Below, piece by piece: positions 1,785 through 38,300 of a DNA stretch of 64,000 nucleotides (position 1 is its first letter; the number at the start of each line of letters is the position of its first letter). The notes beneath the pieces are model-generated. The model saw nothing but the letters and a program-made list of their open reading frames with translations, ran no database searches and was not told the DNA's origin. The DNA comes from Cognatiyoonia sediminum (GTDB lineage Bacteria > Pseudomonadota > Alphaproteobacteria > Rhodobacterales > Rhodobacteraceae), in NCBI RefSeq assembly GCF_900129845.1, contig NZ_FQXB01000001.1:496001-560000 (forward strand), given 5' to 3'. Position numbers and translations under genes: made by a program.

Positions 1785-2537
1785 TTGGACGCAGTGACAC
1801 TACTCGACGCGACTTTATTGCCTGCTATCGCTATCGCGGTGTTTGCGGGGCTTTTGTCGTTCCTGAGCCCCTGCGTTCTTCCGATTGTACCGCCGTATCT
1901 TGCTTATATGGGCGGCGTTTCGGTCGGCGATATGGATGAAGAACGCGCCGCGCGGAAACGGGTGTTTACCGCGGCCTTATTCTTCGTTCTGGGTCTATCC
2001 ACGGTCTTCATCTTCCTCGGGATGGCTGTCTCTGCCGTTGGGCGTGCATTCCTGCAATATCAGGATTGGTTTATTTATGGTGCTGGCATCATTGTCGTAA
2101 TCTTTGGATTGCACTTTCTGGGGGTCTTCCGGATCGGTTTTTTGCAAAAAGAGGCCCGTTTAGATGCCGGCGACCGAGGTGGGTCATCCTTTGGAGCGTA
2201 TGTTTTGGGCTTGGCCTTTGCCTTTGGTTGGACGCCTTGCATCGGGCCAATTTTGGGAGCGATTCTTGGTCTTGCCGCGTCGGAGGCTGACGTGGCGCGT
2301 GGGACAACATTACTTGCAGCCTACGCGCTTGGGCTTGGCATACCGTTTTTGTTGGTTGCCGCCTTCTTCCCTCGACTGAAAGGGGCAATGGCTTGGATGA
2401 AGCGCCATATGGTGGCAATTGAACGCGTATCCGGCGTTTTGTTGGTAACGGTTGGCGTTCTGATGCTGACCGGTCAATTCACGGCGTTAAGCTATTGGCT
2501 GTTTGAAAAATTCCCAGCTTTGGCAGTCCTCGGATAA
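1785..2537 (+). CDS. ccdA: Cytochrome c biogenesis protein CcdA
   Basis: 250 residues with about six membrane segments. The first helix holds the conserved Pro-Cys motif (FLSPCVLPIVPPYLAYMGG) and the fourth the paired motif GWTPCIGPILG. CcdA is the short form of DsbD: it carries electrons from cytoplasmic thioredoxin across the inner membrane to periplasmic thiol proteins used for cytochrome c maturation. The start is a TTG, supported by AAGGAG at 1771-1776 with 8-nt spacing and by there being no better start. Its 3' end is about 58 nt before the next gene on the same strand. Confidence 0.93.
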   Translation: MDAVTLLDATLLPAIAIAVFAGLLSFLSPCVLPIVPPYLAYMGGVSVGDMDEERAARKRVFTAALFFVLGLSTVFIFLGMAVSAVGRAFLQYQDWFIYGAGIIVVIFGLHFLGVFRIGFLQKEARLDAGDRGGSSFGAYVLGLAFAFGWTPCIGPILGAILGLAASEADVARGTTLLAAYALGLGIPFLLVAAFFPRLKGAMAWMKRHMVAIERVSGVLLVTVGVLMLTGQFTALSYWLFEKFPALAVLG

Positions 2538-2595
2538 GCGCTTAATTTCGCCACAACCTCGGTATAGGGTCGTTTGGAATCCAGCTGGGTGGGCG

Positions 2596-10067: not shown

Positions 10068-10109
10068 AAAAAAATTTGGAAATGCAGGTTTCTGTTGCCA
10101 GGTACCTGC
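10068..10109 (-). terminator. Terminator of ssrA
   Basis: Read on the minus strand, GCAGGT (10109-10104) pairs with ACCTGC (10089-10084), and a run of seven T (10074-10068) follows after a short spacer. It lies just beyond the coding piece of tmRNA. Confidence 0.6.
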
Positions 10110-10393
10110 GGACCCCGCCTAGGGTCGCAAAACCCTAGGAGTTAAGATTTCAGTCTTAGGAACTGCTTACGCAGCTACTGCAACTGGAGCATGGTTGTCA
10201 TTTGCAACTAGCTTAAGTGAACCGATAACGGTGGTATCTCACCGAGACAAAGCAAACCCCTTTAGACGTTCGTCGATCCTATTTCGGCCCCATGATCCCC
10301 AAATGAAGGATGTTTGGTGGAGCCGCCGGGTACCGCCCCCGGGTCCGATCCGCTTATTACGAGCGCGTTTATGTCCATAGTCCCGAAGGACAC
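10084..10393 (-). ncRNA. ssrA: Transfer-messenger RNA, circularly permuted two-piece form
   Basis: On the minus strand the gene starts with the acceptor piece (about 10393-10315). This has a hairpin GTCC-TTCG-GGAC, a T-arm-like CCGGG...CCCGG region and an encoded CCACCA end at 10320-10315. About 23 nt of intervening spacer follow. The coding piece then begins at 10291 with GGGGCCGAAATAGGATCGAC, the tRNA-like 5' half. The tag frame is at 10205-10167 and encodes ANDNHAPVAVAA with a TAA stop. A perfect 8-bp hairpin (10118-10139) follows in the pseudoknot part. Permuted order is the known alphaproteobacterial form. tmRNA rescues stalled ribosomes with SmpB, and the tagged proteins go to ClpXP; the adaptor SspB is encoded at 7.0-7.5 kb. 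Ends are approximate. Confidence 0.95.
10167..10205 (-). other. tmRNA proteolysis tag reading frame
   Basis: Twelve codons plus TAA inside ssrA, read on the minus strand from GCA at 10205. The encoded tag is ANDNHAPVAVAA. The AND-N start (SspB-binding part) and the AA end (ClpX-binding part) are typical of alphaproteobacterial tags. Confidence 0.93.
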
Positions 10394-10397
10394 TTGT

Positions 10398-10426
10398 TAG
10401 ATAATGCACAGATTTTGCGCTCGCAA
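10398..10426 (-). promoter_or_regulatory. Predicted ssrA promoter
   Basis: On the minus strand TTGCGA (10426-10421) and TATCTA (10403-10398) are separated by 17 nt, giving a sigma-70-like promoter. The expected transcript start near 10391-10393 coincides with the 5' end of the acceptor piece. Confidence 0.5.
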
Positions 10427-10497
10427 GGGTCAGATCGCCTCTGGTCACTTGGGCGAATGTTTTCTAGCTTAGGTGGAAATGCTTCCGGGGGGCTGCA

Positions 10498-36918: not shown

Positions 36919-37341
36919 ATGGCTATCCAGCGCACATTCTCAATCATCAAACCAGACGCAACCAAGCGTAACCTGACCGGTCAGATCGTGGCTAAATTCG
37001 AAGAAGCGGGTCTGCGCATTGTTGCCTCCAAGCGCATTCAACTGACACTGGCTCAAGCACAGCACTTCTATGGCGTACACAAAGAACGTCCGTTCTTTGA
37101 CGAACTTTGCGAATTCATGATTTCTGAGCCTATCGTGGTTCAGGTTCTTGAAGGTGAAGACGCAATCGCGAAAAACCGCGAAGTCATGGGTGCGACAAAC
37201 CCAGCTGACGCCGCTGAAGGCACCATCCGTAAAGAGTTCGCACTCTCTGTTGGTGAGAACTCCGTACACGGTTCTGACGCGCCAGAGACAGCTGCAGAAG
37301 AGATCGCTTTCTTCTTCTCCGGCCTCGAATTGGTCGGCTAA
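36919..37341 (+). CDS. ndk: Nucleoside diphosphate kinase
   Basis: 140 residues. It has the catalytic NSVHGSDA with His at about 117, and the conserved start [15 protein letters not shown]. Ndk equalises NTP and dNTP pools by phosphate transfer through that His. ATG 36919 follows AAAGGACGATAAG. The gene is followed by a GC hairpin and then a long non-coding interval. Confidence 0.98.
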
Positions 37342-37367
37342 AAAGTTAGCCTATTTACGATTGTGTC

Positions 37368-37395
37368 GGCCGCGCGGCGAAATGCTGGCGCGGCC
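37368..37395 (+). terminator. GC-rich hairpin after ndk
   Basis: GGCCGCGC (37368-37375) pairs with GCGCGGCC (37388-37395) around a 12-base loop, 27 nt past the ndk stop. The downstream GTCATGATTCTT is poor in T, so termination may be partial and read-through into the interval beyond is possible. Confidence 0.5.
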
Positions 37396-37494
37396 GTCAT
37401 GATTCTTAAGCACTGCTTAATTTTCTAATTAAAGTATTTATTTACATATATTTACGGGAGATTAGACAGCCCGGCGATCGGCCAAAGTTGACGT

Positions 37495-37855
37495 AAAGGT
37501 CAGGTATCGGAAACAAACAGTTTCCAAAAAAACCGACGAACCTGTCCCTTTAGACAATTGGCGGAATCGACCGTATTCCGTACATCCATACATGTAAGTT
37601 GTTCATGGTTACCAAGTTCAGTTGTGTTTTAACGAGTGACCATTCTGTTTCCCGCACGTTGCGGGGTGTTGAACGAGTAAGCCGAGTTTCGGCAACGTGT
37701 AACGAGTATGCTGCGTGTGCTGCAGCAGTGTTAAACGGTTTAGTGTGGCAGTGTCCGTGGGGTCTGATGCTGTTGGTTAATCTGACGCTTGTGTGTGTGA
37801 GCGAACGATCCGGATTAAAAGGGCGTCCTGCCTCTCAGGGCGCCCTTTAACTTTT
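37495..37855 (+). ncRNA. Candidate structured RNA between ndk and the DUF4112 gene
   Basis: This 516-nt gap has no credible gene. It contains a branched stem at 37495-37551: AAAGG and CAGGT on the left pair with ACCTG and CCTTT on the right, enclosing GGAAAC-AAACA-GTTTCC. Three hairpins follow: CCCGCA-CGT-TGCGGG (37651-37665), GCCGA-GTT-TCGGC (37681-37693) and GCTGC...GCAGC (37710-37726). The motif AACGAGT occurs three times before them (37631, 37672, 37701), each soon after GTGT. It ends in a 13-bp terminator. This could be a free small RNA or a long ndk 3' end. No family is recognised, and the 5' end is a guess. Confidence 0.45.
37818..37855. terminator. Strong bidirectional terminator
   Basis: A 13-bp stem pairs AAAGGGCG-TCCTG (37818-37830) with CAGGG-CGCCCTTT (37836-37848), loop CCTCT. 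AACTTTT follows on the plus strand, and TTTTAATCC on the minus strand. It serves the candidate RNA on one side and the DUF4112 gene on the other. Confidence 0.85.
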
Positions 37856-37857
37856 CT

Positions 37858-38259
37858 TCATGCCATTTGCAGACATTTTGGTTGGCGTGTGACTTCATAG
37901 GCTTGTGCAGCCTGTTTGTTCAGTTTGCGTTCAAGCGCCCGATAGTTTCGGATGTTTGAGTTGTAGACCACGTCGAAAACGTCACCGATGATCGGGATCG
38001 AATCAATTAGCAGGTCGACGACCGTGTTGCTGATCATATAGGCCAAAGCGCCCGGCGTCGCGCCAAGCTGTTTCGCTTTGTAGATCATGTACACGGACGG
38101 GGCGACGGCCATAGTGTCACCGACGATCGGGATAAGTCCGAAAAAGTTGTCGAGGCCCACAGATATATTTGTGCCTGGAATGTAGAATAAAGCGTCCATC
38201 CGCCAGGCAATGACGCGCAGTTTCTTAAGTTCATAGTCGATGTCTTGCTCAATGTTCAT
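37858..38259 (-). CDS. DUF4112 domain membrane protein
   Basis: 133 residues from ATG 38259 (an in-frame GTG at 38274 is less likely). The pattern RMDALFYIPGTNISVGLDNFFGLIPIVGD, with two Gly/Pro-rich membrane segments and a second IPIIGDVFDVVYNSN, is the DUF4112 signature. The function is unknown. The basic C-terminus faces the cytosol by charge. It ends at the strong terminator. Confidence 0.85.
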   Translation of the reverse strand: MNIEQDIDYELKKLRVIAWRMDALFYIPGTNISVGLDNFFGLIPIVGDTMAVAPSVYMIYKAKQLGATPGALAYMISNTVVDLLIDSIPIIGDVFDVVYNSNIRNYRALERKLNKQAAQAYEVTRQPKCLQMA

Positions 38260-38300
38260 GGTGTTAACATACACTATGAGCGGTCAAATGTGAAGGGTAT

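Follow-up and report, generated by a model that had tools for sequence, protein, structure and literature searches.

A recurrent motif array between ndk and an intrinsic terminator in a Rhodobacteraceae genome

The interval between ndk and the DUF4112 gene

The window, that is, the whole 64-kb stretch of DNA analysed here, carries an ndk gene whose product is 94-96% identical to the Yoonia, Loktanella and Litoreibacter proteins, which places the host within the Rhodobacteraceae, near these genera. The interval between ndk and the convergent DUF4112 gene (37440-37857) holds no credible gene, as an earlier reading of the sequence alone had proposed, and its longest plus-strand ORF (37599-37850, 83 aa, TTG start) had no Pfam match. 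Its G+C content, 0.45 versus 0.535, is among the lowest for stretches of equal size in the window, and its second half is G+T-rich on the plus strand. The locus comprises the following features.

36919-37341, plus strand: ndk, nucleoside diphosphate kinase (Pfam PF00334, E 1.9e-54), which would own this 3' UTR
37359-37404, plus strand: G+C-rich stem-loop directly after ndk, without a T run (fold of 37345-37440)
about 37481-37562, plus strand: branched stem (-25.1 kcal/mol, z -2.4, 4 of 200 shuffles equal or better)
37609-37618, plus strand: weak motif copy GTTACCAAGT, first site in the cluster found with the motif matrix (PWM)
37631-37637, plus strand: motif copy 1, AACGAGT (sequence and PWM cluster)
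37651-37665, plus strand: hairpin CCCGCACGTTGCGGG (sequence and local fold)
37672-37678, plus strand: motif copy 2, AACGAGT (sequence and PWM cluster)
37681-37693, plus strand: hairpin GCCGAGTTTCGGC, containing the weak motif copy CCGAGT (sequence, local fold and PWM cluster)
37701-37707, plus strand: motif copy 3, AACGAGT (sequence and PWM cluster)
37710-37726, plus strand: hairpin GCTGCGTGTGCTGCAGC, GCTGC..GCAGC (sequence and local fold)
37818-37848, plus strand: intrinsic terminator, 13 bp (terminator scan; fold z -4.6; relatives have hairpins resembling it by eye at the corresponding position)
37858-38274, minus strand: DUF4112 gene, convergent neighbour (Pfam PF13430, E 1.9e-30)

The sequence-only reading had listed AACGAGT at 37631, 37672 and 37701 and three short hairpins within 37651-37726, all of which are present, the motif copies on the plus strand. 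The branched stem, earlier delimited to 37495-37551, was recovered over the longer segment given above, and the terminator said to close the stretch indeed has 13 pairs. That reading recognized no known RNA family, and Rfam 15 yielded no match in the interval either at the gathering score or at permissive thresholds. Elsewhere in the window, an ordinary tmRNA gene of the alphaproteobacterial two-piece type maps to 10081-10430 on the minus strand (Rfam RF01849, 305.7 bits); ACTCG, searched for in this tmRNA as a complement to the motif, is absent from it.

Folding of the whole interval gave a z of -2.9, and the region around the post-ndk stem-loop is very stable (z -3.8 for the 96 nt at 37345-37440). 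The section containing repeats and hairpins (37620-37735) was by itself no better than shuffles (z -0.3). ACGAGT occurs three times in 37601-37817 versus 0.1 in shuffles (0 of 4000), a comparison biased by the derivation of the motif from this very place; because the search started from the three copies, their strength within the interval is not independent. AACGAGT is found only once more in the 64 kb (31153, minus strand), and pairs of it 15-45 nt apart are unique to this place in the 3.26-Mb genome. On its own evidence in this sequence the array is not compelling, and it becomes so only because of the other genomes described below.

We then considered the same gap in relatives. Where both neighbours are kept, it mostly spans ~20-110 nt and contains one terminator of the form AGGGC-GTCC..GGGC-GGCCCTTTT. 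The terminator at 37818-37848 resembles this single terminator by eye, and therefore the ~400 bp ahead of it seem to be extra sequence; the terminator itself is probably the ancestral one, common to ndk and the convergent DUF4112 gene, as judged from this comparison. BLASTN of 101 genomes, the genus, phages and plasmids returned only short chance words as homologues of the interval, which was absent from both congeners examined (2/2), and none of about 110 ndk loci in relatives carries an array downstream. There is thus no conservation in place, and the refuting outcome named by the sequence-only reading (no transcript beyond the ndk end, no conservation in relatives) applies in part: neither the interval nor its hairpins were found after ndk there. 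In one congener (G002), an unrelated ORF fills the gap instead (L005, about 2078-2587, plus strand), and the gap therefore seems insertion-tolerant in the genus.

Alternatively, the interval could be the product of chance or neutral processes, namely a decayed low-G+C insertion in which a 7-mer arose three times by luck, with some arrays of other genomes being minisatellites that happen to hold ACGAGT. In line with this, 175 of 2000 dinucleotide shuffles of the interval (9%) contained some 7-mer in three copies, the repeat section shows no fold signal, and there is no conservation in place.

TNACGAGTR arrays in other genomes

As AACGAGT was fixed from the window before any relative was examined, its recurrence elsewhere constitutes an independent result. 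Requiring three AACGAGT copies retrieved four of 394 genomes and zero control matches; one of the four, G226, displays a motif-hairpin-motif-hairpin-motif-terminator series before rnhB. The looser search for three ACGAGT copies recovered 17 genomes versus about 34 in the reversed control, with no genome-wide enrichment, and therefore triples alone prove nothing. Order-wide ACGAGTR triples were likewise not enriched (five genomes versus seven control matches); this search led to G130. In about half of the 17 genomes, the array is gene-free and G/T-rich. Coding acidic repeats (G236, G284, G324 and the triples of G121 and G200) were discarded as arrays, and so were the coding matches in G132, G269 and G680; the arrays of G331, G167 and G389 were kept as doubtful. 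Many viral contigs (L128-L247) contain AACGAGT at an exact 36-bp period, probably reflecting coding 12-residue repeats, for which reason their triple-motif matches were not used.

Collectively, the searches delineate TNACGAGTR as a recurrent motif: in about a dozen other genera of Rhodobacteraceae, its arrays come after genes and usually ahead of a terminator. We defined a TNACGAGTR 3'-UTR array as at least three oriented copies within about 130 nt, gene-free, with a same-strand gene upstream and an intrinsic terminator downstream. The window conforms to this definition in copy number, absence of genes, plus-strand ndk upstream and the terminator at 37818-37848; an intrinsic terminator also lies downstream of the array at most other loci. 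A further mark of the type, retention of the motif while spacers diverge among related genomes, is seen at the rnhB locus and not in the genus of G130. Several arrays exceed the minimum of the search, with 7-8 copies in G130, 6-7 in G195 and four in G389, and that of G259 has five copies counting CCGAGT. Besides ndk and rnhB loci, arrays come after metG in G195, polA in G193, a fasciclin gene in G549 and a glycosyltransferase gene in G130, always on the same strand as the host gene.

This arrangement bears on two alternatives. Repeated sites for a DNA-binding protein would account for short repeats in gene-free DNA, and ACGAGT is a near dyad (AC-GA-GT); however, the copies are all oriented with the upstream gene and usually lie ahead of a terminator, and the rnhB members described below join covarying RNA hairpins to the array, so that such a DNA-level element appears very improbable. 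It is also improbable, if less so, that the interval is a free-standing sRNA gene, about 390 nt long, separate from the ndk transcript and served by its own promoter in the A+T-rich 37405-37455. The strong terminator, the low G+C throughout the interval and a TATATT in the A+T-rich stretch just before 37460 fit such a gene, whereas a promoter scan of the plus strand gave no promoter-like match and arrays elsewhere directly follow genes.

To score the window, the motif matrix was built from 42 sites, all from other genomes, with the window left out of training. It placed five sites at 37609-37710 (53.7 bits), by far the top cluster in the 64-kb window; the best cluster on the opposite strand reached 17.4 bits, and permuted or reversed matrices over non-viral loci reached at most 24-35.

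Within the genus of G130, two relatives retain the region of its array at 81-83% identity, ACGAGTG has often become ACCAGTG, and some copies are lost. Conservation of the copies there does not exceed that of the flanking sequence, and a decayed 24-nt tandem repeat makes up part of the array. Of all the evidence, this pattern speaks most against strong selection on each copy. Tandem-like arrays (G130, G167, G259 and G389), together with the lack of genome-wide enrichment of triples, further speak for the chance or neutral origin considered above. CcsR1/ar14-like sRNA sequences, below the Rfam gathering score, neighbour the G130 array (L314, 1322-1420 and 534-655, minus strand).

An rnhB-linked RNA

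The arrays of G226/G435, G259 and G310 reside at one locus, reaching from a small secreted-protein gene to rnhB, with unrelated spacers. Inspection of 89 rnhB-upstream regions brought in three more with the block CACATCTCC plus motif copies. Altogether, arrays lie after the small-protein gene and upstream of rnhB in ten genomes. The RNA predicted at this locus is laid out as a hairpin with a CAUCCCGCACAUCUCC loop, a second hairpin, 0-5 motif copies and a final terminator. Both hairpins covary in a seven-member alignment, in which 7 of 19 pairs changed on both sides versus 0-3 in slid versions. Of 355 genomes, 18 matched a covariance model of this RNA, with 11 strong matches (E below 1e-8); the model contributed G376, G121 and G373 as new array members. 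In total, the rnhB-linked RNA was found in at least 11 genera (L277, L276, L266, L328, L346, L363, L385, L386, L389, L390, L391, L392), and Rfam holds no family for it.

Six rnhB array members had not been picked by the triple pattern. These contain eight ACGAGT versus 0.46 in shuffles and 11 GAGTG versus 2.2 (0 of 1000 in both cases). Three of the six came from a search in which the model itself included one motif copy behind hairpin 2; without that first copy, four ACGAGT are left, as counted on the sequences. Such enrichment in members not chosen by the motif, its retention at the rnhB locus across genera despite differing spacers, and a window cluster far above control matrices all argue against a chance or neutral origin, which we deem unlikely.

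Array-less members are informative as to how the array is placed. In the model matches G227 and G222, a T run directly follows the second hairpin and there is no array; in array members, the T run after hairpin 2 has decayed and the array precedes a new terminator. Arrays at rnhB thus come after a hairpin that is a terminator in array-less members. This layout, and the location of the ndk array between stop codon and terminator, would suit a cis-acting 3'-UTR element that controls only how the ndk mRNA decays, is processed or acquires its 3' end, for instance by offering sites to a nuclease or chaperone between a first hairpin that has been disarmed and the terminator in use. The stem-loop at 37359-37404 is possibly such a disarmed first terminator, by a likeness to hairpin 2 of the rnhB-linked RNAs that we infer. 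Among the rivals of the reading preferred below, a purely cis role in mRNA decay comes closest, and we regard it as possible yet rather doubtful: the hosts (ndk, metG, polA, fasciclin and glycosyltransferase genes) are unrelated, and a shared reader acting in trans accounts for this no less well.

The window's own genome has no array upstream of rnhB and gave no match to model R1 at E 0.01. A first hairpin of rnhB type, suggested in the window by an R1 match, was dropped after testing the hairpin alone: the hairpin-only model R2 gave 1.3 bits at 37562-37608, and none of its hits was among the window's best matches.

A candidate 3'-UTR RNA with proposed docking sites

The motif, the array and its strand, the terminator and the recurrence of the array after other genes in other genera are directly observed, and the recurring array is well supported. 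From these we infer transcription, maturation, a partner and an effect for the ndk array. Co-direction with the gene, placement before the terminator, repetition and the covarying neighbours together favour a function at the RNA level, and the presence of several equal sites in a single RNA suggests that one partner is bound multivalently. The reading that we tentatively prefer, short of confidence, is that the interval represents a long 3' UTR of ndk, or an sRNA released from that UTR, in which the TNACGAGTR array sits between the ndk stop codon and the intrinsic terminator. Motif copies, split by variable hairpins or G/U-rich spacers, would then give a single RNA several docking points for a partner acting in trans, either an RNA-binding protein or a base-pairing sRNA, which the array-bearing RNA may titrate or gather as a scaffold.

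The sequence-only reading had likened the interval to RNAs that offer several copies of a single-stranded motif to a protein or another RNA. The multi-copy part of this proposal gained from the finding of the same array after genes in other Rhodobacteraceae; conservation in place was not borne out, nor was the single-strand state, as the motif is predicted to be no more accessible than other parts of these RNAs (mean percentile 0.56).

Closest in kind are the 3'-UTR-derived sRNAs of Rhodobacter sphaeroides, a member of the same family, i.e. SorX, UdsB, UdsC, UdsD and UdsH, whose maturation involves RNase E along with other RNases and which end at the gene's terminator (PMC8625941, PMC9779115). 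The ndk case would likewise be a stop codon-to-terminator RNA, of about 400 nt and with a repeated motif, unlike the 67-nt UdsC; the main texts of these papers mention neither ACGAG nor ndk (PMC8625941, PMC9779115). The rnhB-linked RNA shares with the ndk interval a UNACGAGUR array after a gene and before an intrinsic terminator, at a different locus and with a CAUCCCGCACAUCUCC-loop first hairpin that the window lacks. CcsR and ar14 sRNAs (Rfam RF02791 and RF02344; same order) also carry a multi-copy short motif, but theirs is CCUCCUCCC, with no match in the window interval. Sponge RNAs such as CsrB and RsmZ contain many copies of one short motif (GGA), set off by hairpins. Like them, the ndk array repeats one short motif between hairpins and could hold several partner molecules; unlike them, its unit is ACGAGU between hairpins rather than GGA in loops, it belongs to a 3' UTR and its accessibility is not special. 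A literature search for ACGAGU or CACAUCUCC in bacterial RNAs retrieved nothing relevant.

The feature corresponds to no known family, and it is hard to put it down to an artefact. It appears to be one case of a recurrent, undescribed repeat-bearing 3'-UTR type in Rhodobacteraceae, with the function outlined above as its putative role. More speculatively, and with considerable doubt, an undescribed trans factor common to the family may read UNACGAGUR, with arrays having grown separately in many genera in the 3' UTRs of unrelated genes as sponge-like mRNA tails with fast-changing hosts.

The rnhB-linked RNA with its CCCGCACAUCUCC loop adds a further structured RNA missing from Rfam, and the TNACGAGTR arrays provide a defined motif plus several natural baits for pull-down. 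If the arrays bind one factor, the binding sites would reveal a Rhodobacteraceae regulator, in the way that CsrB, through its GGA repeats, points to CsrA, and housekeeping genes would prove to have 3' UTRs that are recruitable as multivalent RNA platforms.
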